Origin: Halioglobus sp.
GTDB taxonomy: Bacteria > Pseudomonadota > Gammaproteobacteria > Pseudomonadales > Halieaceae
Assembly (NCBI GenBank): GCA_020443425.1
Contig: JAGRIE010000006.1
Location: forward strand, 131,191-195,190
Reading direction: 5' to 3'
Length of the DNA: 64,000 bases
Positions 17,429 to 43,196 of this stretch are shown piece by piece. The position numbers and the translations under genes are program-made. The notes below the pieces were generated by a model. It searched no databases. It was not told the DNA's origin and saw only the letters and a list, made by a program, of their open reading frames with translations. Position 1 is the first letter of the stretch; every line of letters starts with the position of its first letter.

Positions 17429-18817
17429 ATGTCGCTTCAGGTAAAACAGGTTGGGTCGCAGCAGGCCAATCCGCAACGGGTCGCATTCCTGCTGGATAAC
17501 CTCAATGGCGGTGGTGCCGAACGGGTAGTGCTGTCCATGGCCTCGGGATTTGCATCGCTGGGCTATGAGGTCGACCTGCTGGTGTGCGAGTTGCAGGGGG
17601 AGCTGTGCGGCAGTGTGCCGCCCGGGGTCAACCTGGTGGTGCTGCAGCCCGTCGGTAAACTGGCTGGCCTGGCTGCCGCTGTGCGCAGGGCCGGCTGGCG
17701 CGGTTTTGGCGGTCTCCTGTTCTGGCTGGCATCGGCGCGGAAAATTCCGCGCACCTTCCGCTACATCCGCGATATCAGCGACTATCTGCAGAACACGCGC
17801 CCGGCCGTGATCTCCTCCGCGCTGGGCAAATCCAGTATCAGCGCCATCCTGGCCGCATCCGGGCTGGATGTGCCGACCCGGGTGTTTGTCGGCGTGCATA
17901 TCGCGCTGTCCATTCGCAGCGAGCAGAGCCGGAAAAGCGGCAAGGGCCAGGCGTACAGCATGGTGCCGATGTTCCGCTACAGTTTTGCCAGGGCCGACGG
18001 TGTCATCGCCGCCTCGCGCGGTGTCGCCGAGGATGCGATCAGCCTTCTCGGCCTGGAGCCGGAGCGCGTGCATGTGGTCTACAACCCCGTCGCCGAGCCC
18101 GAGCCCGCCGGTGAGCCCGGCGGGGTCTTTACCCACCCGTGGTTCCGGCCGGGCTCTCCACCGGTCATCCTCGGCATGGGGCGGCTGGTCGAGCAGAAAA
18201 ACTTTCCGCTGCTGATACGGGCGTTCGCCGCAGTGCGCCGGCGCGTCGATGCGCGGCTGGTGATTCTCGGTGGCGACAAGTCTTCCGCTGACCAGATGGC
18301 GCACCGCCAGGAACTGCAGAGCCTGGCGACAGAACTGGGCGTCGGGGAGGATGTCGCACTGCCGGGTTACCAGCGCGATCCCCATACCTTCCTGCGCGCG
18401 GCGCGGGTCTTTGTGCTGTCCTCCAGTTTTGAGGGGTTCGGCAATGTGCTGGTGGAGGCGCTGCTTGAGGGGTGCCCGGTGGTGAGTACCGATTGCCCCA
18501 GTGGGCCCGCCGAAATCCTGGAGAACGGCCGTTACGGAAAACTGGTGCCGGTCGACGATGTGGCGCGGCTATCGGAGGCGATTCTGGACACCCTGGCGTC
18601 GGAGCCGGAGCCGGAATTATTGCGTGAGCGCGGGCGTGAATTCTCCCTCGAGCGCGCAGTGGAGGGGTATCACCGGATATTTTTCGGCGAGCGTCCCGCC
18701 TGCCTGCCCGACGGGCCGGCGCTGTCATCGTCGGTCAAGCCCAACTCGTACGCCACCAGGCAGGCCAATGGCAGCCAGAGAATAATCCACAGCTCCCTGG
18801 GCCGGGTGACGATCTGA
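17429..18817 (+). CDS. Glycosyltransferase family 4, C-terminus overlapping the opposite-strand ligase gene
   Basis: 462 residues. N-terminal GGGAERVVLSMASGF (about 28-42) and donor-domain motifs ILGMGRLVEQKNFPLLI (about 247) and SSFEGFGNVLVEALLEG (about 332) mark a GT4 transferase. The recognisable domain ends near residue 418 (EGYHRIFF). The remaining roughly 44 residues have no family character and read the antisense of the O-antigen ligase gene, so this frame may have lost its original stop. The two genes overlap tail-to-tail by 148 bases. It is related to the GT4 at 28754-30007 (same GGGAER opening and TDCP segment), so the pair may act on the same glycolipid. Confidence 0.87.
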   Translation: MSLQVKQVGSQQANPQRVAFLLDNLNGGGAERVVLSMASGFASLGYEVDLLVCELQGELCGSVPPGVNLVVLQPVGKLAGLAAAVRRAGWRGFGGLLFWLASARKIPRTFRYIRDISDYLQNTRPAVISSALGKSSISAILAASGLDVPTRVFVGVHIALSIRSEQSRKSGKGQAYSMVPMFRYSFARADGVIAASRGVAEDAISLLGLEPERVHVVYNPVAEPEPAGEPGGVFTHPWFRPGSPPVILGMGRLVEQKNFPLLIRAFAAVRRRVDARLVILGGDKSSADQMAHRQELQSLATELGVGEDVALPGYQRDPHTFLRAARVFVLSSSFEGFGNVLVEALLEGCPVVSTDCPSGPAEILENGRYGKLVPVDDVARLSEAILDTLASEPEPELLRERGREFSLERAVEGYHRIFFGERPACLPDGPALSSSVKPNSYATRQANGSQRIIHSSLGRVTI

Positions 18818-19917
18818 TCGGTGTCGACGAGCACGCAGATCACGCCCAGTGCGAACAGGCACAGGTAGCGCGCGCGCCGCACCGTGAAAACCATCTTGAA
18901 CGCGGTGTACAGCGCCAGCCCGTAGACCACCAGCAACAGCAGCAGGCCGACCAGGCCGCCGTCGCGCAGCGTCGCCAGGAAGCTGCTGTGGGCGTAGTTC
19001 AGTATGCTCGGTTTGCCGTCGGGCAGTAGCACAATCTCTGGCTGGTAGCCGTAGCCAAAAATGGGGGCGGCCTGCCACTGCTCCAGTATGCGCTCCCAGA
19101 TGGGGAACCGGGCCGCGAAGCCGAGATCCACCGCCGCGTTCAACAGGCCCAGCGACCAGATCAGGTAGACGCTGGCAGTGAGCCCGATGCACAGCCCGAT
19201 CACCAGGGCCGGCGGTGTCCGGCGGCGGTCCAGCAGGAACAGCAGGGCACTCGCCGAGGCCAGCGCCAGCAGGCCGGTGTTGCTCTGGGTCAGGATGACG
19301 AACAACACGATAACCGGCACCCCCGCCGCATAGACATAGGCCAGCTTTTCACCCCAGTGCCGGCGTGCGTAGTCCAGTGCGATAACGCCGAAAAAGCCGT
19401 AGATGAAAGCGCTCGGGTTGGGGTTGTCAGTAATCCCCAGGCCGATCATGCGATTCTCTGTCAACGCCGGTAACAGCAGCAGGTCTTCAAACGTGGCGAT
19501 GGAGACCGCCGCCGCGGCGATCGCCACCAAAGCGACCGCTTCCATGATTGCGTCCGGCAACTGTCGGTGGCGCTCAAACCAGTACACAGTCAGCAATATA
19601 AAAACGAGTATGTAGGCCGTGTACCGGGTGTCGCGCCACAGCGTCTCGAGGGAAAAATCCGTGCTCCACAGCGAGCTGGTCAACATATAGGCCAGGTAGA
19701 CCAGCAGGCCCAGCCAGATGCGGCTCCTCATGCACAGCTTCACGGTTTGCGGCAGCAGGAACAGGCCGGGCAGGAACACGGCGGCAATATAAAACTTGTA
19801 GTTGTCCACCGCGTTGGGAACAAAGTAGAAGCCCGCGAGGAACAGCGTATAGGTCGCGAAAACGATATTCGCCAGACTCCAGCGCCGCTCGCGATCCGGA
19901 AAAGACAGGTTTAGCAC
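18670..19917 (-). CDS. O-antigen ligase family protein (WaaL/Wzy-like)
   Basis: 415 residues with about 11-12 membrane helices. The large periplasmic loop and C-terminal Wzy_C signature are visible as WERILEQWQAAPIFGYGY and NYAHSSFLATLRDGG around residues 280-325. Family members either ligate O-antigen to lipid A-core or polymerise it in the periplasm; sequence alone does not separate these. The GTG start at 19917 overlaps the stop of the upstream GT2 gene (GTGCTAA), implying translational coupling. It is the last gene of a seven-gene minus-strand unit beginning at 26222. Its 3' end overlaps the convergent GT4 gene. Confidence 0.87.
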   Translation of the reverse strand: MLNLSFPDRERRWSLANIVFATYTLFLAGFYFVPNAVDNYKFYIAAVFLPGLFLLPQTVKLCMRSRIWLGLLVYLAYMLTSSLWSTDFSLETLWRDTRYTAYILVFILLTVYWFERHRQLPDAIMEAVALVAIAAAAVSIATFEDLLLLPALTENRMIGLGITDNPNPSAFIYGFFGVIALDYARRHWGEKLAYVYAAGVPVIVLFVILTQSNTGLLALASASALLFLLDRRRTPPALVIGLCIGLTASVYLIWSLGLLNAAVDLGFAARFPIWERILEQWQAAPIFGYGYQPEIVLLPDGKPSILNYAHSSFLATLRDGGLVGLLLLLVVYGLALYTAFKMVFTVRRARYLCLFALGVICVLVDTDQIVTRPRELWIILWLPLACLVAYELGLTDDDSAGPSGRQAGRSPKNIR

Positions 19918-20897
19918 GAGGCATCCTTGTGGCGATAGTGTCGGTTGGGTATCTGCAGCACGCCGGCAATGGTACCCAGATTGTCAGCGATATGCAGCGC
20001 GTGCGGTACCCACGCGCCGCTGTTGCGGCCGGCGCTGGCGAGCATGCGCAGCAGGGACCAGCCGATCTGCCCTGCCGCTCTCAGGGTCAGGCGCAGGGCA
20101 ATACGCAGCGCGCCGAGGGCAGAGCGGGATTTCAGGCGCCGTTTCACAAAGTATTTCACGCAGCCGCGGCGATAGGACTCTCTCCACATGTAGGAGAAGT
20201 TGGCGCGTTCGGCCGGGATCCATTCGCTGACGCGTGCCGCAGCGGCCCAGGCGAAACTGTGGCCGCGCTGTTTCAGCGACTGGAACAACAGTTTGTCCTC
20301 GCCGCCGCTGAGTGCCAGGGCCGGCTCGAACGACAGGCCGGAGGGGCCGAGCAATCCGGCCCGCACCAGTACATTGCAGGTCGCCGCCGGTGGGTCCGGG
20401 TCCAGTTCGCGCAGACGCTCGCTGTTCTCCGGCTTCCTGAAAATACTGCTGGCGGCGATCCACTCCGGCGTCAGGGGTGGGAAGACCGGGGTGGCGGGGC
20501 CGACCACGATATCCGCACCGCTGCGCGCTTGGGCATCCAGCAACTGGTCCAGCCAATCGGGTGCCGGCACCTCATCGTCGTCGATCATGGCGATAAAATC
20601 CGTGCCCGGCGGCACCGCGGCCAGCGCCGTGTTGCGGGCGTAGGAGATGCCGGGTCGCGGTTCGTGCAGGTAGTGCAGTGGCCAGCGCCACGTCTGCGCA
20701 GCGCAGGTCGCCGCCGCCGAGCCAGTGGGCGAATTGTCCACCACAATGAGCTGTACGCGCGGTGTCGGCGTGACGGTGAACACCTGTCCATCGAGCCCGG
20801 CCAACAGGCGCTGCAGGCCATCGGGACGCATAAACGTGCAGATACAGACGGCTAGTGAGCTGTGTGTTGGCTCAGGAATGGGTTGCTCCACTTGCAT
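19911..20897 (-). CDS. Glycosyltransferase family 2
   Basis: 328 residues. The GT-A nucleotide-binding strand VCICTFMRPDGL (about 17-28), VDNSPTGS (about 54), and the metal-binding DDDE in FIAMIDDDEVPAPDW (about 100-114) identify a family 2 transferase; LALSGGEDKLLFQSLKQRG (about 193-211) is the acceptor-side ED motif. The C-terminal region is basic and amphipathic, suggesting membrane contact. It starts at ATG 20897, five bases after the stop of the upstream acyltransferase, and overlaps the ligase start, so it belongs to the lipid operon and may add a sugar to the lipid made there. Confidence 0.9.
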   Translation of the reverse strand: MQVEQPIPEPTHSSLAVCICTFMRPDGLQRLLAGLDGQVFTVTPTPRVQLIVVDNSPTGSAAATCAAQTWRWPLHYLHEPRPGISYARNTALAAVPPGTDFIAMIDDDEVPAPDWLDQLLDAQARSGADIVVGPATPVFPPLTPEWIAASSIFRKPENSERLRELDPDPPAATCNVLVRAGLLGPSGLSFEPALALSGGEDKLLFQSLKQRGHSFAWAAAARVSEWIPAERANFSYMWRESYRRGCVKYFVKRRLKSRSALGALRIALRLTLRAAGQIGWSLLRMLASAGRNSGAWVPHALHIADNLGTIAGVLQIPNRHYRHKDASC

Positions 20898-20902
20898 AAT
20901 GA

Positions 20903-21904
20903 TTAGAGTTTATGCGCCTTCGGCCAACGCCGTTTCAGGCAGACCCACTGCTCGGGGTACTCCCTGATCCACGCTTCGAAGTGCTGGTGCACGATCTCGG
21001 TGACAGCCACCGCCTGCTCCTTGACCGGGGCATCGGGAATCGGGCTGACCAGTGGGTCGTAGACGGTTATCCGGTAGCGCCCGCCCGGAAGGCGCTCGGC
21101 GCGCGACAGGACGATGGCGGCACCGGTGCGCAGCGCCAGTCCCACCGCACTGGTATTGGTCAGCGCATCCACGCCAAAAAACGGGATCAACTTGCCGGTA
21201 TCGGGCCGCGTGTCTATCGCCATGATGATGCTTTCACCCGCGTTCAGCGCCTTGATCAGCGGCCGCGGCCCGGCGTCGGCGGCGATCAGCTTTTCGCCGA
21301 AAGACTGGCGCAAGTCCAGCATCAGCTCCTGCATCACCGGGTTGGACTCCGGCGCATAGATGGTACTGATGTCGAACCCGTACTGCCTCGTCACCAGCGC
21401 CGCGACCTGCCAGGCGCCGACGTGGGCCGTCATGAACACGGTGGCGCGCCGGCTCTGCATATGCTTGAGCGCTTCCGGTTCCAGCACGAATTCGATGCGC
21501 TGTTCACGCTCTTCCCAGATCTGCTGCAATTTCAGCAATTCGGCGGCGGAGTACCCGAGGTGGCGGAATATCTCCCGGGTGGTCTGCTCCCGCCACTGCG
21601 GCGATTTGTCGGGAAAGGCGATAGCCAGGTTGTCGCGGGCCTTAGCCGCCTTGTCTGACAGCGAACCGACGAGGCCGAATACGGCCGCCGATAACCGCAT
21701 GGCCTGGTCGATACTCAGCTTGCGCATCAGCCAGAATATAAAACGGAACAGGGCGGCCTCTGCCCGCTGTGTGAAAGCGGCCAGCCGCGGCGCCTTGCGG
21801 GCAAGGCGCTTCGGAACCAGGTAGAACTCGGGCACCCCGGTCGACTCAACCCTGGCCCGGGTCTGAACCGAATATGCGGTCCCAGATCGGGGAGCTGACT
21901 CCAT
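20903..21904 (-). CDS. LpxL/HtrB-type lysophospholipid/lipid A acyltransferase homologue with altered catalytic motif
   Basis: 333 residues from ATG 21904 (AGAGGG upstream). The LpxL-family layout is clear: ARDNLAIAFP (about 90), the acyltransferase motif region TAHVGAWQ (H161 to Q166), IMAIDTRPD (about 222), and QWVCLKRRWP near the end. The usual catalytic pair is HxxxxE/D; here position six is glutamine (HVGAWQ). The neighbouring paralogue keeps HQSNWE. The enzyme may be inactive, a partner of the paralogue, or use another acid. The 5' end overlaps the hydroxylase gene by 59 bases; a GTG at 21835 is an alternative start that avoids the overlap but lacks a ribosome site. Confidence 0.85.
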   Translation of the reverse strand: MESAPRSGTAYSVQTRARVESTGVPEFYLVPKRLARKAPRLAAFTQRAEAALFRFIFWLMRKLSIDQAMRLSAAVFGLVGSLSDKAAKARDNLAIAFPDKSPQWREQTTREIFRHLGYSAAELLKLQQIWEEREQRIEFVLEPEALKHMQSRRATVFMTAHVGAWQVAALVTRQYGFDISTIYAPESNPVMQELMLDLRQSFGEKLIAADAGPRPLIKALNAGESIIMAIDTRPDTGKLIPFFGVDALTNTSAVGLALRTGAAIVLSRAERLPGGRYRITVYDPLVSPIPDAPVKEQAVAVTEIVHQHFEAWIREYPEQWVCLKRRWPKAHKL

Positions 21905-22475
21905 AGCGACCACCCTCTTTCGAGTAGTGGTGCTTCAGGTGGTAGTGTTTGAGGAATTTGGCCACCGGGTTGCGCATCGGGAAGTGATGGGTCGAGTAGT
22001 GGATGTAGTCATAGACCAGGTAGCCTATGATAAAAAACGCGCAGAACGGCTGGATCCAGGGCTGCGGGATAAACAGGCCGAACAGCAGGTACAGCACCAG
22101 CATGATGGGGATGGCGCCGGCGGGCGGCATCACCAGGCGGGTCTTGTCCTTCGGGTCATCGTGGTGATTGCCGTGGAACAGGAACACCAGCCACTTGCCC
22201 AGCTTGCTCCTGGCGGGGAAGTGGAACAGGTAGCGGTGCAGGCAGTACTCGGTGAGCGACCAGGTGACGATACCGGCGAACCCGATCGCCAGCACCGGCA
22301 GCAGCGGCAGGTTGTACACGGCGAAGCTGCGCCAGATCAACCAGCCGGCAATCGGCCCCCACATCAACAGCGGCGTGATGGGGTGGACATGGGACAGGCG
22401 CTCGAGAAAATCATTCTCGAACAGGCGTATGGACTGATGTTGTTCGTCAGGCTGCATAGGAATCTGTGTCGGCAT
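21846..22475 (-). CDS. Fatty acid hydroxylase superfamily protein, FA2H-like
   Basis: 209 residues, four or five membrane helices, and the di-iron histidine boxes of the fatty-acid hydroxylase/sterol desaturase superfamily: HRYLFH (about 83), HGNHHDD (about 100), HYSTHH (about 160) and HLKHHY (about 180). The spacing resembles the catalytic part of eukaryotic FA2H, which 2-hydroxylates the N-acyl chain of ceramide. It is nested between two LpxL-like genes with overlaps of 59 and 29 bases, and sits in an operon with a fatty acyl-AMP ligase and a CerR-like reductase. Hydroxylation of a ceramide or lipid acyl chain is therefore a reasonable inference, not proven. Confidence 0.85.
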   Translation of the reverse strand: MPTQIPMQPDEQHQSIRLFENDFLERLSHVHPITPLLMWGPIAGWLIWRSFAVYNLPLLPVLAIGFAGIVTWSLTEYCLHRYLFHFPARSKLGKWLVFLFHGNHHDDPKDKTRLVMPPAGAIPIMLVLYLLFGLFIPQPWIQPFCAFFIIGYLVYDYIHYSTHHFPMRNPVAKFLKHYHLKHHYSKEGGRYGVSSPIWDRIFGSDPGQG

Positions 22476-23433
22476 CTGGGCCGCGCTCCTCCGTCTTGGA
22501 TAGTTTACGTTTTGGCCATATGCGCTTCGAGCAGAACCAGTCTTCGGGTTGCTCGCGTATCCAGTTCTCGAACTGCAGGTGGACCTGCTGGATCATATCG
22601 ATGGCCTGGTCTGTCTCATCCGCATTGGCATTGCGGGGCCGTACCGGGGGGTGAAAGGTGACCCGGTAGTGGGCATCCTGCAACCGCTCCACCTGCACCG
22701 GGACGAGGTCGCAGTGGAATTTCAGTGCGAGTTTGGCGGGCATGATGGTCGAGGGCTTGTCGAGCCCGAAAAACTGCACGGGCTTACCCTCATCGACCCG
22801 GCGATCCATCACCATGGCGGCGGTCCGCCCCTGCTTCAGCGCGCGCATCAGCAGGCGGGCGCTGTTCTCTGCCGGCAACAATTCGCAGTTGAGTGCCTCC
22901 CGCGACGCCAGCAACATACGGTCCAGCAGCGGGTTGGTGGGCGGCGAGTAGAGGCTGGCGTTGGGAATATTCAATTTTGCCATGGCCGAACAGACCACCT
23001 CCCAGTTGCTCTGGTGGGCGGTCACGATAACGCAGGGCCTGGCGGGGTTCTCGTAGGTTTCGATGGGCTCGCGAATATCGATCTGCAGGCGATCGTCCTC
23101 GGCGAGTATCGTGGCGAGGTGTGGGTACTCCGCCATTACTCGCCCGGAGCGACCCCAGGAGCGGGTGACGAGGTCATCCAGTTCCGTCTCGCTCAACTGC
23201 GGGAACGCGATCGCGAGGTTGGCGCGATAGATGGCCGTCTTCCTTTTCAGCTTCGGGCCTATCCAGCGTCCCAGCCTGTCACCGAAGCGGGAAGCCGTGT
23301 CGACGGGCAGCAGTCGCGCCAGCCGGGTAATCGACCACACCAGCACAAAATCCAGTCGCCACAGCGCCTCGCGGAGCAGGCGGTGATCGCGTGCCCATTT
23401 GCGCAATGGATTGCCGACAATAAATTCTGCCAC
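22447..23433 (-). CDS. LpxL/HtrB-type acyltransferase with intact catalytic motif
   Basis: 328 residues from GTG 23433. Family landmarks are YRANLAIAFP (about 69-78), the catalytic HQSNWE (H140, E145), AAMVMDRRVDEGKPVQFFG (about 205-223) and DWFCSKRIWPKRK near the C-terminus. Members transfer acyl chains to lipid A precursors or to related glycolipids and ornithine lipids on the cytoplasmic face. It is 75 bases downstream of the CerR-like gene and overlaps the hydroxylase start, so it belongs to the lipid operon. A late lipid A acyltransferase role remains the default; an acyl transfer to a sphingolipid is the alternative suggested by context. Confidence 0.88.
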   Translation of the reverse strand: MAEFIVGNPLRKWARDHRLLREALWRLDFVLVWSITRLARLLPVDTASRFGDRLGRWIGPKLKRKTAIYRANLAIAFPQLSETELDDLVTRSWGRSGRVMAEYPHLATILAEDDRLQIDIREPIETYENPARPCVIVTAHQSNWEVVCSAMAKLNIPNASLYSPPTNPLLDRMLLASREALNCELLPAENSARLLMRALKQGRTAAMVMDRRVDEGKPVQFFGLDKPSTIMPAKLALKFHCDLVPVQVERLQDAHYRVTFHPPVRPRNANADETDQAIDMIQQVHLQFENWIREQPEDWFCSKRIWPKRKLSKTEERGPDADTDSYAA

Positions 23434-23508: not shown

Positions 23509-24447
23509 TCAAAGTGATGGTAATTTGAGCTGTTCCAGCCCCTCGCGCAAACCGACTGCGGGTGCCCACCCGGTGGCGGCGGTGATCGCGCTGTTGTCGG
23601 CAACCCAGTCACTGTGCCGCAGTTCGCGCAACTTGGGCGGTGTCAGCATGGGCGCGTTGCCGGTGATGGCGGCCAGCCGGCTGTTGAGGCTGGCGACGGT
23701 GTCGAGCAGCCACTTTGGCACGCGCACGAGGCGCACCTGCCGCGACCAGTGCTGGCCGGCCATTTCCGCCAGGTCGTGCCAGTTGTAGCCACCGGGCCTG
23801 CCGTCGCTCAGGCTCAGCGGCTGGCGCAGCGCGGCGGGGCACAGCAGGCAGGCGATAATGGCCTCCACCAGGTCGGATACGTAAATCAGCGAGATACGCA
23901 CGTCCGGCGAGCCGGGTACCACTGCGATACCGCGCCGCATCAGCTGGAAGATCGGCAGCATCTCCTTGTCGCCGGGGCCGTACACCGCCGGTGGTCGCAG
24001 CACGGCGTACTCGATATCCGCACACTGCAGCAGCAGCTGTTCGCCCTGCCATTTGCTGTGTGCATACCAGGAGATATCCGGCTCGCGCGCGACAATCGAG
24101 GACAGCAACAGCAGCCGGGGGCGCTGGCTTTGCGCGCGAATCGCGTTGATGACGGCGGCCGTGCCATCGACATTGACGCGGTCGAAGTCGGCCTGCGAAT
24201 TGCCCCGTACCGCCCCTGCGGCATGCACCACGGCATCGCTGTCGGTGAGAAGCTGTGCCAGGGCTGTGCTGTTGGCGAGGTCACCCTCGACGAGGCTGAC
24301 ACCGATGTTGGCGAGTCCGGCGGCGGCTGCCGGGTTCCTGACCAGTGCCCGGACGCGGTAACCCCGGTCCAGCAGGGACTGGCACAGGGTGGAACCGATG
24401 AACCCGGTAGCGCCGGTAACGGCGATGAGGCTGCCTTTGACGATCAG
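23509..24447 (-). CDS. NAD(P)-dependent epimerase/reductase, CerR-like, apparently CTG start
   Basis: About 312 residues of extended SDR fold. The Rossmann motif TGATGFIGSTL lies about ten residues from the start, and the catalytic YxxxK is YAHSK (about 130-134). The first ATG/GTG/TTG in frame is a GTG at 24231, which would delete the Rossmann motif, while upstream an in-frame TGA comes before any usual start. The best candidate is CTG at 24447-24445, overlapping the TGA of the upstream acyl-AMP ligase (CTGA), with AGGG about ten bases before. The family includes CerR, the 3-ketosphinganine-type reductase of bacterial ceramide synthesis; adjacency to the ligase matches that pathway. Confidence 0.75.
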   Translation of the reverse strand: MIVKGSLIAVTGATGFIGSTLCQSLLDRGYRVRALVRNPAAAAGLANIGVSLVEGDLANSTALAQLLTDSDAVVHAAGAVRGNSQADFDRVNVDGTAAVINAIRAQSQRPRLLLLSSIVAREPDISWYAHSKWQGEQLLLQCADIEYAVLRPPAVYGPGDKEMLPIFQLMRRGIAVVPGSPDVRISLIYVSDLVEAIIACLLCPAALRQPLSLSDGRPGGYNWHDLAEMAGQHWSRQVRLVRVPKWLLDTVASLNSRLAAITGNAPMLTPPKLRELRHSDWVADNSAITAATGWAPAVGLREGLEQLKLPSL

Positions 24448-26222: not shown

Positions 26223-26510
26223 TGTAGATTCCTCGTGTTCGACGATCTCTCCGCCGGGTGAACCAATTTCCAAAAAGCAGACCTTACTTACCCCTGCAAG
26301 CCAGAGGTATAACGCTTGGTTAAATGATTCCCCCGTGGGTCTGCAGGCCACTTGTCAGTCATCCTCACAAGCACTTGTACATGGGGTACCCTTCTGCTCA
26401 GACCCTGGAAAAAGGGTTATCTGATGAGGCGTAATCCTAGCATTTTGGGCTTTGGCGCTTATAGGAAATAATACCAACGGCCAATGTGAACAATCCCGAA
26501 GAATGGGCCT

Positions 26511-28739: not shown

Positions 28740-28753
28740 CGTCAATCCGCCTG

Positions 28754-30007: not shown

Positions 30008-30302
30008 TCTTTCCGTCTCTCGTTCGCCGGGCATCCCCGGCAGCGACGTTATAACCCGGCTACCCGGCGCGAATTTGCGCGCGGTCATTCCGTGGACAAT
30101 GACCTCTCACGTTCCGAAAGCAGCGGAAGTACGCGATTGTGGCGTCACTGGTTGGGGCGAGCAAGGGCGTAGTATACACCGAAGGTGCAGAGCCACCATT
30201 GCCCCTTGTGTGTCAGCGCCGGGCTGTGGCAGTTGGCCTGATTTCTTAGGGGCCTGATTCAACGGTATACTTGCCGCCCTTCTTTGGATGCAGCGCACAG
30301 GC

Positions 30303-33183: not shown

Positions 33184-33214
33184 GGTGTGAATCCTCGTCG
33201 CCGGCCAGTGGCCG

Positions 33215-35670
<2,456 letters not shown>

Positions 35671-35703: not shown

Positions 35704-35946
35704 TCAGAGGTTGAGTTCGCGGACCTTCCTCGCCAGATCGCCGATAGTATTGACGTCCGGAAGAATATTCAGGGGAATGGAGATATCGAAGTGATCCTCG
35801 ATTTTCTCAATGAATTCCATCACCTCCAGCGAACTGAGCCCGATATCGGCCACCAGTGCGGTGTCCTCTGACAACACCAATTGCTTTTTGTTCTGGAATT
35901 CCAGGGCGCTATAGAGGAAATTCAGGTATTCCTGATAGTCGGTCAT
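35704..35946 (-). CDS. Acyl carrier protein dedicated to the sphingolipid pathway
   Basis: 80 residues, acidic, four-helix ACP. The phosphopantetheine serine is S39 in GLSSLEVMEF (SSL in place of the common DSL). It lies immediately upstream of serine palmitoyltransferase on the same strand, as in the Caulobacter sphingolipid locus where ACP, Spt, CerR and an acyl-ACP synthetase act together. Loading by the acyl-AMP ligase at 24444-26222 is inferred. The gap of 77 bases to the divergent ELM1 gene must hold both promoters. Confidence 0.88.
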   Translation of the reverse strand: MTDYQEYLNFLYSALEFQNKKQLVLSEDTALVADIGLSSLEVMEFIEKIEDHFDISIPLNILPDVNTIGDLARKVRELNL

Positions 35947-36023: not shown

Positions 36024-37070
36024 ATGCCAGTAATTTGGTTGATCGACGCCTACCGCGCAGGCGAGCGAGGGCAGGTGCGCGCCCTGGTGGATGCGCTGGG
36101 CTGGCCCAGTGAAACCAAGGTGTTGAACTACCGCAAGCACGTGTTTTTACCCCATGTGCTGGGGCAGTCGACGCTGCGTGGCATTACCAGCGAGTCGGCC
36201 GCGCTGCTGCAGCCGCCGTGGCCGGATCTGGTGATCACCTGTGGCGTGCGCAACGAACCGGTGTGCCGCTGGATCCGGGAGCAATCGGGCGGCCACACCC
36301 GCTATGTCCATGTCGGGCGGCCCTGGGCGCCGCTGGACACTTTCGACCTGGTGATCACCACGCCGCAGTACCGCGTGCCGCCGCATCCCAATGTGCTCAA
36401 CAATCTGCTGACGCTGCACAGTGTGACCGAGGAGCGTCTGGCGCAGGCCCGTGCGGAGTGGGAATCCACTTTCGCCGCCATGCCCCGGCCGCGCTTTGCC
36501 GTGATGGTGGGCGGTGACAGCGGCCCCTTCACGCTGGGCGCGAAAGCCGCTGCGCGCCTCGGGCGCGAGGCCTCACAGCTGGCGCGGGCCAACGGCGGCT
36601 CGCTGCTGGTGTCGACCAGTTCGCGCACCCGCCCCGCCGCGGTCGAGGCGCTGCAGGCGGCGATCACCGGCCCGAATTATTTCTACCAGTGGTCGCCGGC
36701 GCCGGCGGCAAACCCGTATATGGGCATCCTGGCGTGGGCCGATCGCCTGATTGTCACCGGGGACAGCATCGCCATGCTGTCGGAGGCCTGTGCGACCGGC
36801 AAGCCGGTCACGATGTTCGACCTCGGGGGCATGCGTGATATCTACGATGAATCCACCCGCGATTTCCGCGTCGGTGGCATGCTGTACGCGCTGCTGCTCC
36901 GCTGGTTCTGGCGGCCGCTGAGCCGGGATATCACACTGGTGCACCGCCGTCTGCGCGAGACCGGTTGTGCCTCCTGGATTGAGGATGTGCTGGTGACGGC
37001 GAGGGTGCCGGCGGAAACCGATCTGAACCGCGCAGTCACCGCTGTGCGCAAGCTATTTGGCGAGTCCTGA
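36024..37070 (+). CDS. ELM1/GtrOC1-family putative glycosyltransferase (first copy)
   Basis: 348 residues from ATG 36024 (GGAAG seven bases upstream). N-terminal IWLIDAYRAGERGQ and QVRALVDALGW match the opening of the ELM1 family (named after a plant mitochondrial fission factor); the donor-like half has VMVGGDSGPFTLG (about 160), STSSRTRP (about 195) and VTGDSIAMLSEA (about 245), a GT-B-like pattern where a nucleotide sugar would bind. The family's bacterial role is poorly known. The 3' end overlaps the convergent ABC gene by 18 bases. A paralogue lies at 42090-43196. Confidence 0.8.
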   Translation: MPVIWLIDAYRAGERGQVRALVDALGWPSETKVLNYRKHVFLPHVLGQSTLRGITSESAALLQPPWPDLVITCGVRNEPVCRWIREQSGGHTRYVHVGRPWAPLDTFDLVITTPQYRVPPHPNVLNNLLTLHSVTEERLAQARAEWESTFAAMPRPRFAVMVGGDSGPFTLGAKAAARLGREASQLARANGGSLLVSTSSRTRPAAVEALQAAITGPNYFYQWSPAPAANPYMGILAWADRLIVTGDSIAMLSEACATGKPVTMFDLGGMRDIYDESTRDFRVGGMLYALLLRWFWRPLSRDITLVHRRLRETGCASWIEDVLVTARVPAETDLNRAVTAVRKLFGES

Positions 37071-38801
37071 GCCGCTGTCGCCGCTTGTGTCGAGGCGCTC
37101 GGCGACGCCGCCGGACATCCGGTACACCGTGTCGGCCCCCGATACCATGGCCTGGTTGTGCGATATCGCCAGGATGGTCAGCTGGCCCTTGAGCGCATCC
37201 AGGGCCTGGCGCACCGCTTCTTCGGTGTCCTTGTCCAGCGCACTGGTGGCCTCATCGAGGATCAACAGCCGCGGCTGGTTGATCAGCGCCCGGGCGATCA
37301 CGATCCGCTGCCGCTGGCCCCCCGACAGTTTGCCGCCGCGCTCGCCGACAATCGTGTCCAGCCCCTGCGGCAGGCGGGTGACAAAATCCCAGGCGCCGGC
37401 GGCGCGCAGTGCGCGCTCGACGTCAGCCGCGGTCAGCGAGGGTTCGCCCAGGGTAACGTTGTGGAGAATGCTGTCGTGCAGCAGGATGGTGTCCTGGGGC
37501 ACATAGCCAATCATTTTCCGCCACTGCTCGATGTCGATCTCCTGCAGTGGTACACCGTCCAGCAATACCTGCCCGCGCTGCGGCCGCAGCAGGCCGATCG
37601 CCAGATCGATGATGGTGGTTTTGCCGGAACCCGAGGGGCCCACCAGTGTGGTCAGCGAGCCCGCTTCTATCTGCAGCGACAGCCCCTGGAACACGGGGTG
37701 CTGGTCGTAGCTGAAGTGCACATTGTCCAGTGTGAGGCCGTGTTCGAAGTGCGGCGTAAGGCCGCCTTGCAGATCTTCCTGCGCCGCCTCGGCCGCCTTG
37801 ATCGCATCGGTCAGCGACCAGTAGGCGCTGTCGCCCTCCGCCAGTTTCTGGTACTGCTTCTGTACCTTGCCAAAATACGAGAAGGCCCTGCCCAGCGCGA
37901 CCACCAGGACCATCACGGTGGGCAGGTCCATGTGGAACCTCTCCATCGCGACATAGATGCCAAGACAGATAAAGGCCGTGAACATCAACTCCTGGCCGGA
38001 GTTCAGCATGGCGGCGCTGAGCACCTGCCGGCGCTGGGACTTGTTCAGTAGGTTGGTATCGTGCGCCAGCACCTGGTCGGCCAGGTATTCGCGGGACATG
38101 GCCTTCAGCGGCTTCACCGATTGCAGGGTATCGGTCAGGTTCGACATCAGCGATGTCATCAGCCGGGTCTGCTTGTTCGCCGCTTTGCGCGTGATGTTGA
38201 CCAGGAAATGCGACAGGCCGATGACCACGGCGCCCGCCACAATCGCGACCAGCGATGCCCGCCACGACAGCGCGAAGGCGACGCCGGCGTAGATGATGCC
38301 CGGAATGAGGAAGGTGAGGGCGGTGGTGCCGTTGACAAACGCGGTCGCCGAGCGCTGCGCCTCGGAGGCCATGGCATTGGTCAGCCGGCCGACCGGCTGG
38401 TGCAGGAAATACTCCCACTTGCTGCGCAGCACGGCACGCAGTAATTTCAGGCGCAGGTCGGTACTGACCTGTGCGGCGGTGTAGCCCACCTGGCGCTGCG
38501 CGAGCAACAGGAACAGGGATTTGAAGGCAACGCCCCCGAGCAGGATCGCCAGCATACTGCCCAGCGTGGGGGTGATGCCGACGTAGTCCAGAACGCTCAG
38601 TATGCTCTTTTCAAACTCGCTCTGGCCCTCGACGGCGGCACCGGGAATGGCGCTGGTGGCCTCCGGCCCCAGCGCAATATTCAACAGCGGCAGCAGCGCC
38701 GAGACACCCACACCCTCGGCAATCCCGGACAGCAGCAGCGCCAGCATCATCAGTACAGTCTGCCAGCGGTAGGCGCGGAAAAAGTCGAGCATCAATCCCA
38801 T
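37053..38801 (-). CDS. MsbA-like ABC transporter, fused permease and ATPase
   Basis: 582 residues, the same length as MsbA. Six membrane helices occupy about residues 1-320; the nucleotide-binding domain follows with Walker A GPSGSGKTT (about 375), Q-loop PQDTILLHDS (about 423), signature LSGGQRQR (about 480) and Walker B LLILDEATSALD (about 500). As a half transporter it should dimerise and flip a lipid or lipid-linked glycan across the inner membrane. It lies 78 bases downstream of lptG on the same strand. The substrate could be lipid A-core or the sphingolipid built by this locus; sequence cannot decide. Confidence 0.88.
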   Translation of the reverse strand: MGLMLDFFRAYRWQTVLMMLALLLSGIAEGVGVSALLPLLNIALGPEATSAIPGAAVEGQSEFEKSILSVLDYVGITPTLGSMLAILLGGVAFKSLFLLLAQRQVGYTAAQVSTDLRLKLLRAVLRSKWEYFLHQPVGRLTNAMASEAQRSATAFVNGTTALTFLIPGIIYAGVAFALSWRASLVAIVAGAVVIGLSHFLVNITRKAANKQTRLMTSLMSNLTDTLQSVKPLKAMSREYLADQVLAHDTNLLNKSQRRQVLSAAMLNSGQELMFTAFICLGIYVAMERFHMDLPTVMVLVVALGRAFSYFGKVQKQYQKLAEGDSAYWSLTDAIKAAEAAQEDLQGGLTPHFEHGLTLDNVHFSYDQHPVFQGLSLQIEAGSLTTLVGPSGSGKTTIIDLAIGLLRPQRGQVLLDGVPLQEIDIEQWRKMIGYVPQDTILLHDSILHNVTLGEPSLTAADVERALRAAGAWDFVTRLPQGLDTIVGERGGKLSGGQRQRIVIARALINQPRLLILDEATSALDKDTEEAVRQALDALKGQLTILAISHNQAMVSGADTVYRMSGGVAERLDTSGDSGSGLAK

Positions 38802-38879: not shown

Positions 38880-39950
38880 TCACCACCGCATGCGACGCAA
38901 CAGCAGCAGCGCGCAGGCGAGGATAACCAGGGTCGGCAGCAGCGCTACCAGCGGGATGTTCCATTGCAATAATTGTCCCAGTGAAAAGATGATCTGGGTG
39001 CCCAGGTAGAAAAGTATGCCCAGCACCGCCCCGATGCCGATCTTGATGCCGAAACTGCGATCGCGACCGGCTGTGGCGCCGGCGCTGAGGGTGGTCGCCA
39101 GCAGCACCATCGCGAGCACGGTCAACGGCATCAGCAGTCGCTGCCAGAAGGCGTTGAGGTATTTGTCGGTGGGCTGCCCGTTGCCGGCGAGGTACTGGCT
39201 GTACGAGTACAGCACCGACAAAGTCATACTGTCGCTCTTCAGGGTCAGCGTGGGCAGTTCGTCGCTCGACCACAGGTTGGCAATCTCCAGTTCCGGGTAC
39301 CCCCTGGTGCGGAATTCGCCGTTGACCAGCGCTTTCTCCCTGGCTTTCTGGAACAGCCAGTGCCTGTCCCTGGTCACCTCTGCGGTCGCTGCCCACACGG
39401 CCCGTACCAGTTGCCTGGACTCGTCGAATTCAAACAGGCTGATATTGCCGGGCACATTGTCCTCGGACATTTTTCCAAGGTGGATGTAGCGCCGGCCATC
39501 GGTTGACCAGACGCCGCCGCCGGGAATCCACCCCTGGTTGCCGTCGCGCAGCAGTTTTCTCTCCTGCTCCGCAGACTGCTGCAGCTGGGGCGTGATGTAT
39601 TCCATGCAGACCCACAGGCCAGCCATCAGCAGTACAGTGGGCAGGGCGAGTGCGGCGAATAATTTCCTGGGCGGGAAACCGGTGCAACTGATGATCGTCA
39701 GTTCGTTGTAGCGGTCGAGATTGGCCAGTGCCACGATGCTGCCCAGCAGCGCGATCACGGGCGCGAGGCTGACCAGTTGGTTGGGCAGGGTCAGCAGCGT
39801 GTATTTGGCGACTTCCAGTGCATTGTAATCCAGCTCGGTGTGATCGAGCTCCTGGGTGAACCCGATCAGCCCGAAGATGGCACCCAGCACCAGGAACACG
39901 AGAAACCAGCCCTTGGCGACATTGATACCGATATAGCGCTGCAGAATCAT
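38880..39950 (-). CDS. lptG: LPS export ABC transporter permease LptG
   Basis: 356 residues from ATG 39950 (MILQRYIGINVAKGWFLVFL). Family features: three N-terminal membrane helices, a large periplasmic beta-jellyroll (about 120-260) and three C-terminal helices, ending in LLRRMRW. With LptF it forms the permease that, powered by LptB, lifts lipopolysaccharide from the inner membrane onto the Lpt bridge. The ATG overlaps the stop of lptF (ATGA), a standard coupled pair. Frame extension upstream to 40211 is antisense-like sequence and was rejected. Oddly, pepA, the usual gammaproteobacterial neighbour of lptFG, is absent. Confidence 0.9.
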   Translation of the reverse strand: MILQRYIGINVAKGWFLVFLVLGAIFGLIGFTQELDHTELDYNALEVAKYTLLTLPNQLVSLAPVIALLGSIVALANLDRYNELTIISCTGFPPRKLFAALALPTVLLMAGLWVCMEYITPQLQQSAEQERKLLRDGNQGWIPGGGVWSTDGRRYIHLGKMSEDNVPGNISLFEFDESRQLVRAVWAATAEVTRDRHWLFQKAREKALVNGEFRTRGYPELEIANLWSSDELPTLTLKSDSMTLSVLYSYSQYLAGNGQPTDKYLNAFWQRLLMPLTVLAMVLLATTLSAGATAGRDRSFGIKIGIGAVLGILFYLGTQIIFSLGQLLQWNIPLVALLPTLVILACALLLLRRMRW

Positions 39951-41014
39951 CGTCGTTTCAGCCTCGGTTGTGTAACCAGAATCACCAGCAGCACCGCCTG
40001 CAGTGCATACGCCGTCCACAGGCCGGGTATCGCCCCGAGCTTGCCCTGCTCGATGAAGGTGCGCAGCACACTGACCATCGCGAACAGGGCGATATACGAC
40101 AGCAGCGCGATGCTGAAGTTGCGAAAGCGCGACTCGCGCGGTGCCGAGCGCGCCAGCGGTACGGCGATCAGCGCCAGCAGGATGGTCGCCAGCGGTGTGG
40201 TGATACGCCACTGGTACTCGGCGATGTCCTTGGGATCAGAGGACTGTGACAGGGTCAGTGTGGTCTCGGCTTTGCGGCGGTATTTTTCCTCCGCCTCCTC
40301 ATTGGGCAGGTGCACCACCAGCTCCCCGAACTCCAGGGTCAGGTCGCGGCGTTCCCGCCGGTCCAGCAGGTAGTTGTAGCCGTTGTAAAAGGTGGCTTGC
40401 GAGGCCTGGTTGGGGTTGAGGGTCGGCATCGCGGCGGTCTCGGCGACAATGATCTCGGTGCGGGCCTCCTTGTCGTAGTTTTTCAGCAGGAACACGCCGC
40501 TGTGCAGGCCGGTATCGATGTCCACACCCGTGGCGATAAACGTGTAATCGCTGCCCCCCATATTGACGAACTCGTTGGCGGTCATTTTTTTCAGGTCAAA
40601 CTGTGCAGCCGCCTGGGACTCCAGCGCATAGCTGGTGCGGAAGGCCCAGGGCCGGCCCATGATGGAGATCAGGCCGGTGAAAAGCGCCACCAGCAGCGCC
40701 AGTTTGAACACCGCTTCCAGAATGCGCGCGCGACTGACGCCCGCGGCATAGAACGCGCGCATCTCCGAGTCGCGATAGAGGCGACCGATTGCTGAAAGTA
40801 CCGAGAAAAAGAACGCCGAGGGCAGTAAAATTTCCAGTGTTATCAGCGTATTGAGGCCGACGAGCTTGAATGCGGTCAGCATGTCCAGCTTGCCCTCGGC
40901 GGCCAGCGAGAGCTGGCTGGCGGCGGAAAAGCCAATAAAAACCAGCACCAGAAGGCCGAGTCCGGTGATGAAGGGGCGCAGTATTTCCCAGCTGATATGG
41001 CGGTCGATGATCAA
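39947..41014 (-). CDS. lptF: LPS export ABC transporter permease LptF
   Basis: 355 residues if started at TTG 41014 (L-I-I-D-R-H-I-S-W-E), the position that matches the family's usual IIDRYI opening; AGGA lies ten bases upstream. An earlier start at 41101 or 41074 would add 20-29 residues without family support. Features: N-terminal helices, the periplasmic jellyroll with VFLLKNYDKEARTEIIVAE (about 155), then three C-terminal helices. It pairs with LptG, whose start overlaps this stop. The gene is divergent from a sulfotransferase 131 bases away, rather than from pepA. Confidence 0.9.
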   Translation of the reverse strand: MIIDRHISWEILRPFITGLGLLVLVFIGFSAASQLSLAAEGKLDMLTAFKLVGLNTLITLEILLPSAFFFSVLSAIGRLYRDSEMRAFYAAGVSRARILEAVFKLALLVALFTGLISIMGRPWAFRTSYALESQAAAQFDLKKMTANEFVNMGGSDYTFIATGVDIDTGLHSGVFLLKNYDKEARTEIIVAETAAMPTLNPNQASQATFYNGYNYLLDRRERRDLTLEFGELVVHLPNEEAEEKYRRKAETTLTLSQSSDPKDIAEYQWRITTPLATILLALIAVPLARSAPRESRFRNFSIALLSYIALFAMVSVLRTFIEQGKLGAIPGLWTAYALQAVLLVILVTQPRLKRR

Positions 41015-41145
41015 GCGGTAGTGTTCCTGTCGAGACTGGCGCCATTGTACATGAAGCGCCAGTTGTCTGGTCATTTTGACCCGCATCGCGCATAATTGCA
41101 CGCTTTGCGCATGTGGCCGCAGCCTTCCAGTGAGTATTTGATTAC

Positions 41146-42087
41146 ATGTTGAATCTGAGTGATGGCGTCAAAAAAGCGCTGATTCTCATCCCGACGCAAC
41201 CGCTCCCGGCCACAACCCGGGTCGCACTGCGCCGCAAGCATCTGGCGCGCCTGGAGCTGGCGAAGGCGCACCGGGCCAATTTCCTGATTATCGGCCACCC
41301 GAAGAGCGGCAATACCTGGCTGAAGGTGATGATTTCACGCCTGTACCAGCTGCGCTACAACCTGCCTGAGTCGAAACTCATCAATACCGATGAGTTCGCG
41401 CGTAAGATACCTGAAATCCCCAGGCTCGCGGCCACCAACGGCTACTACAGTTACGAGGGCGAGGTCGGCAAACTGCTGGCCTGTGGTGCCCCGGACAACC
41501 CGCTGCGGCACAAGCCTGTGCTGTTCCTGGCGCGCAACCCGATCGATATCGCGGTGTCCTGGTATCACCAGTTCACCAAGCGGCAGTCGCGGGCCAAGCA
41601 GGAGCTGATCAACCATTTCATCGAGCACCCCATCGACCGCCACACCGTGCAGATGTGGGAGTTCGTGCGCCATTCCGATATCGGCCTGCCGAGCCTGATC
41701 GAGTACCAGAACACCTGGGCGCGCAATGTGGCTGAGCTGGAGCACGGTATGCTGGCGCGCTACGAAGACCTGCGCGCCGAGCCCGTGCCAACCCTGCACA
41801 GGATCACCCAGCTGATGGGCGAGGATTTCAGCGAGGAGGAAGTGCGCGCCGCTGTGGAGTGGGGCTCGTTCGACAACTTGCAGAAACTCGAGACCAGCGG
41901 CACCTTCAGCCAGGGCGGTATGAAACTGGTCAACCCCAACGACCCCAGTACGTTCAAGGTCCGGCGCGGTAAAGTCGGCGGCTATCGCGACGATTTCAAC
42001 GCCGAGCAGGTGGCTGAGCTCGAGGCGCTGGTGCGCGCCAATATCCTGCCGCAACTGGGCTACTGCCAGGACAGCGCGGACGCCTGA
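41146..42087 (+). CDS. PAPS-dependent sulfotransferase family protein (first copy)
   Basis: 313 residues. The 5'-phosphosulfate loop is GHPKSGNTWLKVM (about 50-62), the 3'-phosphate binding segment is ARNPIDIAVSWYHQF (about 128-142) and the GxxGxxK-like element is RRGKVGGYRDDF (about 275-286). This is the Sulfotransfer_1 layout for sulfating hydroxyls or amines on small molecules, lipids or glycans. It is followed two bases later by an ELM1-family gene, so a glycosyl or lipid acceptor in the same envelope pathway is likely. Two more members occur at 61807-63653. Confidence 0.87.
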   Translation: MLNLSDGVKKALILIPTQPLPATTRVALRRKHLARLELAKAHRANFLIIGHPKSGNTWLKVMISRLYQLRYNLPESKLINTDEFARKIPEIPRLAATNGYYSYEGEVGKLLACGAPDNPLRHKPVLFLARNPIDIAVSWYHQFTKRQSRAKQELINHFIEHPIDRHTVQMWEFVRHSDIGLPSLIEYQNTWARNVAELEHGMLARYEDLRAEPVPTLHRITQLMGEDFSEEEVRAAVEWGSFDNLQKLETSGTFSQGGMKLVNPNDPSTFKVRRGKVGGYRDDFNAEQVAELEALVRANILPQLGYCQDSADA

Positions 42088-42089
42088 AC

Positions 42090-43196
42090 GTGACACCTCG
42101 TACCTGGGTGATTCTCAGTGACAAGCGAGGCGACAACGGCCAGGTGGAGACTATCGTCGACGCGCTGCAGTGGCCGGTGGAGCACAAATACGTGCATATG
42201 CGGCCCGAGTATGTACTGGGCAAGCCGCGCTACCGGCCCTCCCTCGACCACCTCGACCTCAGCCGCAGCGACCCCCTCGAGGCCCCGTGGCCGGACCTGA
42301 TCCTCACCGTGGGGCGGCGCCCCTCCATGGTGGCGCTGTGGATACGCCAGCAGTCCGGCAACAAAACCAAAATAGTGCTGGTGGGCAAGCCCTCTGGCCA
42401 TATGCTGGATTTTTCGCTGGTGATCGCCAGTGCGGAAAACCAGATGCCGCCGATGCACAATTTTGTGCCCACCACGCTGCCGCTGATGCGTGTCGCCGCC
42501 GGGGATGTCGCCAGTGAGGCGCAGGCCTGGCAGCCGCGCCTGGCGCCGCTGCGCAAGCCGCTGATCGCGATGCTGGTCGGCGGTGAGACCAACCCCTTTA
42601 TCATGAACCGGCAGGTGGCCGACGACCTGGTGGCGACAGCGCGCTGGATCGTCGATGACCTGGGCGGCACACCCTATGTCACCACCAGTCGGCGCACGAC
42701 GCCGGAGGTGGTCGAGGTGTTGCGGCGGGAACTGCCGCCGCAGGCGGTGTTCTACGAGTGGTCGGCGGAGTCCACCGACAACCCCTATCGCGCCCTGCTC
42801 GGCACGGCCGACGGCTTCATCGTCACCGCCGACAGCGTGTCGATGATGGTCGAGGTGATCTACCTGCACAAGCCGCTGGCGATTTTCCCGCTACCGGGCG
42901 GCTGGCTCGGTAGTGTCGACCAGTGCCGCCGCTCGCTGGCGCACTGGCTGTTCAACCCCCGGCAGGCATCGCGCCGGGATCGCTGGCGCCATCGGCTCGC
43001 CCGCGGAGTGTTCTACATCGACGTCTTCAAGATACTCTGCGCCACGCGCGACTTCCGCGCGTTCCACCGGCTGCTGGTGGACCAGGGCCTGGCCGTCTGG
43101 TCCGGCCAGCCCTTCGAGCAGCCCGCCGCCGAGTTGCCGGACGATATCAGCGTGGTCGTAAAGCGCATTGAGGCGCTGTTCCAGCATCCGGCCTGA
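42090..43196 (+). CDS. ELM1/GtrOC1-family putative glycosyltransferase (second copy)
   Basis: 368 residues from GTG 42090, three bases after the sulfotransferase stop. It shares with the copy at 36024 the opening (WVILSDKRGDNGQVETIVDAL), LVGGETNPFIMN (about 165), TTSRRTTPEVVEVL (about 195) and VTADSVSMMVEVIYLHKPLA (about 248-267). A GT-B-type transferase is likely, donor and acceptor unknown. Close coupling to a sulfotransferase suggests that the product of one is modified by the other. A 109-base gap separates it from the arylsulfatase gene. Confidence 0.8.
   Translation: MTPRTWVILSDKRGDNGQVETIVDALQWPVEHKYVHMRPEYVLGKPRYRPSLDHLDLSRSDPLEAPWPDLILTVGRRPSMVALWIRQQSGNKTKIVLVGKPSGHMLDFSLVIASAENQMPPMHNFVPTTLPLMRVAAGDVASEAQAWQPRLAPLRKPLIAMLVGGETNPFIMNRQVADDLVATARWIVDDLGGTPYVTTSRRTTPEVVEVLRRELPPQAVFYEWSAESTDNPYRALLGTADGFIVTADSVSMMVEVIYLHKPLAIFPLPGGWLGSVDQCRRSLAHWLFNPRQASRRDRWRHRLARGVFYIDVFKILCATRDFRAFHRLLVDQGLAVWSGQPFEQPAAELPDDISVVVKRIEALFQHPA

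Follow-up and report, generated by a model that had tools for sequence, protein, structure and literature searches.

The window analyzed here is a stretch of 64,000 nucleotides from Halioglobus sp. (GenBank assembly GCA_020443425.1, contig JAGRIE010000006.1, positions 131,191 to 195,190 of the forward strand). It stems from a genome of 4.33 Mb in 222 contigs that is 94% complete (G000; G-numbers denote the genomes compared, L-numbers the locus stretches taken from genomes, and C-numbers contigs). The window contains a locus whose genes are predicted to build a ceramide, to modify it by hydroxylation, acylation, glycosylation and sulfation, and to export the product. The original prediction had named these genes at 17429-43196 and had proposed a surface glycosphingolipid, perhaps sulfated, that is handled by lipopolysaccharide (LPS)-type machinery. 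The named genes were confirmed at this place by a Pfam scan of 50 window proteins and by the closest solved structures, and the proposal is supported by genome comparisons, in which LPS markers were absent and parts of the Lpt export bridge were kept. It is likely that a sulfated glycosphingolipid, exported via a reassigned Lpt bridge, replaces LPS as the outer-leaflet lipid of an outer membrane that is devoid of LPS.

Genes of the sphingolipid locus

The region encodes a complete-looking ceramide pathway. The gene for serine palmitoyltransferase (SPT) is located at 34465-35670 (minus strand). The best solved relatives of its product are annotated SPTs (2x8u, E 3e-122), those of the KBL, BioF and ALAS types are far weaker (best KBL, 7e-59), and judged by these relatives the aminotransferase is a true SPT. 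It is adjoined by an acyl carrier protein (ACP) gene (35704-35946, minus; Pfam PP-binding, E 1e-9), and an AasR-like acyl-AMP ligase or acyl-ACP synthetase is encoded at 24444-26351 (minus; Pfam AMP-binding, E 4e-59), both inside the SPT locus, as in the Caulobacter-type ceramide pathway. The gene for a CerR-like reductase of the NAD(P)-epimerase family (Pfam PF01370) had been called as an open reading frame (ORF) at 23509-24231 (minus). A truncation of this gene was considered and rejected, because the frame is open to 24474 and of full length. Its in-frame translation contains the Rossmann motif GATGFIG, which the orthologs also carry, upstream of the first ATG, GTG or TTG, and the epimerase match together with this motif points to CerR. 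As none of these three codons precedes the motif, translation begins either at an unusual codon or at a different place. The gene originally assigned to the bCerS family (30288-31454, plus) encodes a GNAT-like protein and is kept beside a MobA/CofC-like nucleotidyltransferase gene (31457-32275, plus; Pfam NTP_transf_3, nearest solved structure 2dpw); from this conserved position and a weak GNAT match (E 7e-6) it is a bCerS candidate, and an NCBIfam search yielded no family for the protein. A calcineurin-like phosphoesterase (metallophosphoesterase) is encoded at 32272-33315 (minus; Pfam PF00149).

A hydroxylase gene is flanked by two genes for LpxL-type acyltransferases. The hydroxylase (21846-22475, minus) is of the FA2H/SCS7 type (Pfam PF04116, FA_hydroxylase). 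Its sole PDB matches are to yeast SCS7, a ceramide fatty-acid hydroxylase (4zr1/4zr0, E 3e-23), the histidine boxes are present, the motif RLVMP recurs in 21/22 orthologs, and the NCBIfam search found no family for it. LpxL and LpxM acyltransferases have an H-x4-D/E dyad. Acyltransferase b (22447-23433, minus; PF03279, E 1e-45) has H-x4-E, as do 22 of its 23 best matches, the exception resembling the other paralog. Acyltransferase a (20903-21913, minus; PF03279, E 1e-38) has H-x4-Q, as do 21 of 23 best matches, the other two resembling type b; the glutamine may indicate an altered chemistry or a non-catalytic partner. This trio is present in most Halieaceae loci with enough sequence and also in Thiohalobacter and Thioalkalivibrio, and no match to it was found in the locus stretches of G043 and G016. 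By analogy with the acyloxyacyl groups of lipid A it is suggested that the 2-hydroxyl group introduced by the FA2H-type enzyme may become acylated.

The glycan part of the locus is variable. Three family 4 glycosyltransferases (GT4; 15926-17251, minus, Pfam Glycos_transf_1; 17429-18817, plus, and 28754-30088, minus, both Pfam), a family 2 glycosyltransferase (GT2; 19911-20897, minus; PF00535), an O-antigen-ligase family (Wzy_C) membrane protein (18670-19917, minus; PF04932, E 4.5e-16) and an AsnB-type amidotransferase of the Asn synthase/GATase kind (26793-28745, minus; Asn_synthase E 7e-112, TIGR03108 below cut-off) have counterparts only in some stretches of the relatives, some of which end early. 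In addition, two ELM1-family proteins are encoded, ELM1a at 36024-37070 (plus; PF06258) and ELM1b at 42090-43196 (plus; PF06258, E 6e-49), and no family was found for either in the NCBIfam search. An AlphaFold2 model of ELM1a, built from 30 locus sequences (pLDDT 91), was compared by Foldseek with solved structures; the matches were UDP-GlcNAc 2-epimerases, MurG and heptosyltransferase II (E 6e-7 to 6e-6, TM about 0.4-0.5, root-mean-square deviation mostly 9-13 Å). The high deviation makes this a loose superposition; the GT-B fold class is likely, and a glycosyltransferase is the likely function of the modeled protein.

PAPS-dependent sulfotransferases are characterized by the 5'-phosphosulfate-binding motif PKSGxTW and the 3'-phosphate-binding motif RxPxDxxVS. 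Such motifs were found in three proteins, namely ST1 (41146-42087, plus; PF00685, E 7e-22) with PKSGNTW and RNPIDIAVS, and ST2 (61738-62718, plus; PF00685, E 3e-25) and ST3 (62649-63653, plus; PF00685, E 4e-26) with GKSGRTW and RDPRDVAVS, in which a glycine replaces the first proline. In the window genome, G001 and G016, ST2 and ST3 are separated from ELM1b by a block (about 18 kb in the window), the left part of which is also present in G002. In stretches such as L107, L108, L129-L132, L140-L142 and L189, their adjoining orthologs (79-87% identity) follow within a few kb of ELM1b, and the order is LptF-ST1-ELM1b-ST2-ST3. The three sulfotransferases therefore belong to the locus unit, so that the interval 17429-43196 holds the genes named for it, but the unit reaches to ST2/ST3 (61738-63653), and one GT4 gene lies just to its left. 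At least one ST ortholog was found in 26/26 genomes that were read past LptFG (25 Halieaceae and G043; G003, G010 and 14 further SPT-positive genomes were excluded from this reading); it was ST1, except for ST3 in G022, G025 and G035 and ST2 in G043. Sulfotransferases as a mark that separates LPS-less from LPS-bearing genomes were rejected, as they are present in both.

The position of the nucleotidyltransferase directly beside the bCerS candidate recalls Caulobacter, in which CC_1153 (CofC-like) is numbered next to CC_1154 (cerS). It could thus be argued that the locus makes a CPG2-type phosphosphingolipid like that of Caulobacter, that its phosphoglycerate headgroup is the work of the nucleotidyltransferase and the phosphoesterase, and that the glycan or some other molecule is the substrate of the sulfotransferases. 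This is unlikely, because the ceramide kinase and the CDP-alcohol transferase expected in a CPG2 locus, and any CDP-diacylglycerol-synthase-like family, were not found by Pfam among the 50 window proteins, the rest of the genome not having been searched for them, and because glycosyl- and sulfotransferases predominate in the locus.

LPS markers and gene order across the Halieaceae

The genome search of G000 gave no match to LpxC, LpxB or KdtA; it did not extend to other lipid A genes or to LptB, LptC and LptE. In every search for LPS and Lpt markers on genomes the controls Escherichia coli and Caulobacter were matched; the LpxB model also matched the controls Bacillus subtilis and Lactococcus lactis, 4/6 above the cut-off. 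A panel of 57 genomes, G000 included, was searched for LpxC, SPT, LpxB and LptD. Twenty of these genomes were without LpxC, all 20 had an SPT ortholog, and LpxB was missing in 19 of them. In a family-wide panel of 140 Halieaceae genomes LpxC was found in 107 and SPT in 41; 26 genomes had SPT without LpxC, 15 had both, 92 had LpxC only, and seven had neither, all seven being outside the good-quality set (completeness of 90% or more, contamination of 5% or less; n=78). Within this set all 18 LpxC-less genomes carried SPT (18/18), the 60 LpxC-positive genomes consisted of 12 with and 48 without SPT, and none of the 48 SPT-less genomes lacked LpxC. These cross-counts were obtained by joining two lists and agree with the search totals (60/78 for LpxC, 30/78 for SPT); G090 was scored as SPT-positive despite one in-frame TGA within the match. 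The association of SPT with the absence of LpxC has a Fisher p of 4e-10 for the 78 genomes and of 7.8e-12 for all 140, with kinship ignored. KdtA was present in 15/38 genomes tried, exactly the LpxC-positive ones, and absent in 23/23 LpxC-less genomes.

It might be suspected that the missing LPS genes are an artefact of assembly or sampling, as G000 is incomplete and fragmented and as G014 (L079; 97% complete) has kept LpxB without a match to LpxC or KdtA, possibly as a half-decayed lipid A pathway. However, of the 18 LpxC-less genomes in which all three markers were tried, 17 lack every one of them, among these G022, which is cultured and 99% complete, and G004, which has only 8 contigs, and no classed LpxC-less genome has an LPS-type LptFG pair, which makes an artefact extremely improbable.

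The core gene order is kept across the Halieaceae and partly beyond, with similar loci in Thiohalobacter, Thiogranum, Thioalkalivibrio and Porticoccaceae genomes, and this conservation, which had been proposed as a check of the original prediction, excludes a chance grouping. Halieaceae loci that were read far enough share the ceramide genes, the nucleotidyltransferase, the phosphoesterase, ACP, ELM1a, the ABC transporter and LptF/LptG, with G016 as the exception. A constant lipid part combined with a variable glycan may be likened to LPS. One could also regard the locus as a loose pile of envelope genes, in which the sphingolipid is an accessory and LPS has been replaced by something else, e.g., a capsule. 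Several variable glycosyltransferase genes need not belong to a lipid pathway, and neither need MurA, the UDP-GlcNAc enolpyruvyl transferase encoded at 33215-34468 (minus; 6wfm, E 1.5e-164). Yet the core order persists across families and every good-quality LpxC-less Halieaceae genome carries SPT, so that this explanation is very unlikely. A role of MurA as a lipid-modifying enzyme was rejected, since it is a clear MurA and had no match in the loci of G023, G025 and G043; it is present in many other relatives' loci and is probably a housekeeping passenger.

The distribution of LpxC was also followed on a tree built from the LptF and LptG sequences of the locus (49 rows, then 48 after omission of N075, which has a very long branch). 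LpxC loss is nested within SPT-bearing lineages. The LpxC state requires six changes, and five with good genomes only, and a regain may be among them. On the assumption that lost lipid A genes never return, seven losses would be counted, or eight with the 71%-complete G084, and these numbers are provisional because some branches are weak and the tree is that of the locus and not of the species. The LpxC-less groups are {G089, G022, G035}, {G030, G159}, {G098}, {G024, G087, G088}, {G014}, the main clade with G000, and G043 from another family.

The locus LptF/LptG pair

The locus encodes an LptG-like permease (38880-40211, minus; PF03739, E 2.5e-55) and an LptF-like permease (39947-41101, minus; PF03739, E 3e-54), F and G being named from the gene order. 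According to the genome search they are the sole LptF/LptG pair of G000, in which LptD was found at C162 and an LptA-type protein at C143, so that the bridge parts LptF, LptG, LptA and LptD are all there. Among the relatives, the LptA/LptD_N model matched 37/38 genomes (G035 unmatched) and LptD was matched in 53/57 (G001, G037, G040 and G046 unmatched). The neighboring ABC transporter (37053-38801, minus; Pfam ABC_tran/ABC_membrane) is of the exporter type and a flippase candidate, but its naming as MsbA-like was too specific, as it reaches 256 bits against the NCBIfam MsbA cut-off of 602.

In trees of 131 and 163 sequences, from which a fused ORF of L175 was omitted, LptF and LptG from the locus each group in a separate clade (support 0.96-0.98) and not with the LPS-type pair found in the order, the clade of which has a support of 0.99 for one subunit and of 0.11-0.29 for the other. 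The LPS-type pairs came from 25/29 SPT-less relatives (no locus stretch was taken from G040, G049 and G053, and G046 was without a match). The loci L127 (Halioglobus japonicus BC5_1), L154 (Ca. Litorirhabdus singularis IMCC14734) and L189 (Mangrovimicrobium sediminis) place the locus clade in the Halieaceae. The pairs of 38 genomes were classed, 37 by tree and G007 by identity; the counts exclude G003 and G010 (unclassed) and G086 and G093 (no LptFG match), and a weak match in G013, below the cut-off and with an internal stop, was left uncounted. All 24 classed LpxC-less genomes have the locus pair and none has the LPS-type pair, with G001 and G009 adding a pair of a third type. The 14 genomes with both LpxC and SPT have the LPS-type pair besides the locus pair in three cases (G023, G025, G090), the third-type pair in four (G020, G085, G095, G096), and the locus pair only in seven (G011, G013, G015, G018, G032, G091, G092), and KdtA is present in the six of these seven that were tried. 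A one-to-one relation between a non-locus LptFG pair and LpxC was thus rejected, because seven LpxC-positive genomes lack such a pair and the LpxC-less G001 and G009 have one of the third type.

In the seven LpxC-positive genomes with the locus pair only, either LPS stays unexported or both lipids are transported by this one pair. These genomes look like intermediates, and the distribution suggests a route in which a sphingolipid was first acquired together with an LptFG pair for it, the old LptFG was then lost, and lipid A disappeared last. It could be objected that the lineage is indeed devoid of LPS and makes a sphingolipid, but that the locus LptF/LptG mainly serve another lipid or glycan and owe their placement to shared regulation only. 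The same seven genomes agree with this, as any export of LPS in them would have to use this pair, and so do some SPT loci outside the Halieaceae that are without LptFG in the stretch examined. Against it, this LptFG clade sits in SPT loci from the Halieaceae to Thiohalobacter and Thioalkalivibrio and is kept where LpxC is gone, and we judge a role in another pathway to be quite unlikely. The original prediction had conceded that the link would be only positional if the lptFG, msbA-, LpxL- and murA-like genes of the locus were sole copies and the gene order was not conserved. The order is conserved and the lptFG genes, the only ones counted, are indeed sole copies, which in a genome without LPS argues for rather than against their link to the sphingolipid locus.

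Proposed pathway and relation to known systems

From the genes, we infer the chemistry, including sulfation and acylation, and the role of Lpt as exporter as follows. SPT would join serine with an acyl group on the ACP that is loaded by the acyl-AMP ligase, and bCerS and CerR would complete the (dihydro)ceramide. The FA2H-type enzyme would 2-hydroxylate the N-acyl chain, and one or both LpxL-type enzymes may esterify the hydroxyl group with a further acyl chain. Sugars would be added by the ELM1 proteins, presumed to have the GT-B fold, and by GT2 and GT4, the O-antigen-ligase-type protein may attach the variable outer part, and sulfate is probably contributed by the three sulfotransferases of the PAPS type. 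Flipping of the lipid would be the task of the ABC protein, and the locus LptF/LptG, together with LptA and LptD encoded elsewhere, would carry it to the surface. Tentatively, and with a clearly lower probability than the replacement of LPS as such, the product of the locus can be regarded as a second LPS that evolved independently. This would be a ceramide-anchored lipoglycan that has become lipid A-like by 2-hydroxylation and by secondary acylation of the LpxL type, in which sulfate stands for the lipid A phosphate and which has an O-antigen-like outer part; its own LptF/LptG would first have shared and then taken over the Lpt bridge, and LPS would have been lost at least five times in one gammaproteobacterial family, with living intermediates.

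Several observations speak against the replacement of LPS by an exported, sulfated glycosphingolipid. The sphingolipid is a product predicted from the genes, the LPS markers covered are LpxC, LpxB and KdtA, the G000 assembly consists of 222 contigs, and G014 has retained LpxB. The bCerS assignment, by GNAT match and position, is weak, and LpxL-type acyltransferase a is without the usual acidic residue. Because 12/30 good-quality SPT-positive genomes keep LpxC, SPT is insufficient for LPS loss, and the seven LpxC-positive genomes with only the locus LptFG may use this pair for LPS as well, or even chiefly for LPS. When random sets of six independent pairs were compared for a non-locus LptFG and LpxC, 3.5 changed the same way and 0.3 the other way, which is not significant (median p 0.25). 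In the close relative G016 (L075, L095; G016:C44) the stretch examined around SPT showed none of the genes left of the phosphoesterase (bCerS, nucleotidyltransferase, acyl-AMP ligase, CerR and LpxL/FA2H); the locus appears to be rearranged, and the order is thus interrupted in at least one genome. The stretch of the LPS-less G043 is without FA2H and LpxL-type genes, so that both may be unneeded for LPS loss. Outside of the Halieaceae, LptFG was not found in some loci (e.g., L156, L164, L166, L167) and a sulfotransferase was not found in L160, L162, L165 and L168, in each case within the stretch examined.

The original prediction knew of no described system with this combination of genes. This has to be qualified, as the core partly matches the Caulobacter crescentus genes CC_1168-CC_1152, in which ceramide genes stand together with LptC2/F2/G2 and a potential flippase, with orthologs in other Rhodobacteria and with a transport that is called unknown (PMC11324152). 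Both have SPT, ACP, an acyl-ACP synthetase, CerR, CerS (a candidate in the window), a nucleotidyltransferase gene next to that for CerS (in Caulobacter judged by the gene numbers), an LptF/LptG pair (in Caulobacter a second one, with LptC) and a potential flippase (PMC11324152). The FA2H-type hydroxylase, the two LpxL-type enzymes, the ELM1 proteins, the three sulfotransferases and the glycan genes are additional in the window, the genome of which has lost the LPS markers and contains no second LptFG pair. Caulobacter is described as making LPS and the phosphosphingolipids CPG and CPG2 with a ceramide kinase (PMC11324152), whereas the scan of the window proteins revealed no kinase of this kind. 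Its viability without LPS partly depends on an anionic sphingolipid, and Sphingomonas is naturally devoid of lipid A (PMC12275187, PMC10964400).

In LPS-less diderms of the Sphingomonas type a glycosphingolipid replaces LPS, similar to what is proposed here (PMC11324152, PMC11087976, PMC10964400), and in S. koreensis sphingolipid synthesis seems to be essential (PMC11324152). However, these are Alphaproteobacteria, and the genes are scattered in S. wittichii and Z. mobilis (PMC11324152), whereas the Halieaceae are Gammaproteobacteria with clustered genes and sulfotransferases, in which the LPS state varies repeatedly within one family. Among the Gammaproteobacteria, Azotobacter vinelandii and Pseudomonas luteola have contiguous ceramide loci, in which 13 or more of the 17 Caulobacter genes have orthologs (PMC11324152). 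They are described as phosphosphingolipid loci without orthologs of CC_1168, CC_1167, CC_1166 and CC_1158, and the passages on them mention no LPS loss (PMC11324152). The best explanation is a solution that resembles that of Sphingomonas in its working, has arisen repeatedly, and differs from it as a clustered variant of the Gammaproteobacteria that includes sulfotransferases. Among the matches listed in a search of the open-licence literature, none described Halieaceae without LPS, a bacterial locus for a sulfated sphingolipid, or a sphingolipid-type LptFG as the only pair. The pertinent passages of an older survey of lipid A genes name some Gram-negatives without the pathway and do not mention the Halieaceae group (PMC3087551), and a word search of the main text of a Halieaceae genomics paper on IMCC14734 found neither "lipopolysaccharide" nor "sphingo" (PMC10100682).

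The Halieaceae thus represent a natural experiment, with genomes that have LPS markers only, both systems and two LptFG pairs, both systems and only the sphingolipid-type LptFG, or the sphingolipid locus only. A member without LPS markers, Ca. Litorirhabdus singularis IMCC14734, is available in culture as an isolate (PMC10100682), and IMCC11814 (Ca. Marimicrobium litorale), likewise an isolate, is apparently congeneric with BC5_1 (PMC10100682). An anionic, possibly sulfated and phosphate-sparing surface would make ecological sense in phosphate-poor sea water.

Two further observations concern Lpt-like genes in the relatives. A third, deep type of LptF/LptG was found in L112 (G001:C11), L113 (G009), L101 (G020) and L194-L196, i.e., in four LpxC-positive and two LpxC-less genomes, and a small LptA-like protein is encoded near it in G001, G085 and G095. 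LptA-type (PF03968) matches also lie about 12-22 kb from SPT at G030:C7:70398, G020:C5:288760, G022:C14:434698, G024:C98:11587 and G087:C38:2809. The block between ELM1b and ST2 in the window (43306-61645) was excluded from the lipid locus. It encodes a sulfatase, a DUF3604 protein, an SDR, a TonB receptor, a Rieske KshA-type oxygenase, a BphC-type dioxygenase, a member of the acetoacetate decarboxylase family and an amidohydrolase, and it seems in part to resemble a catabolic cluster.

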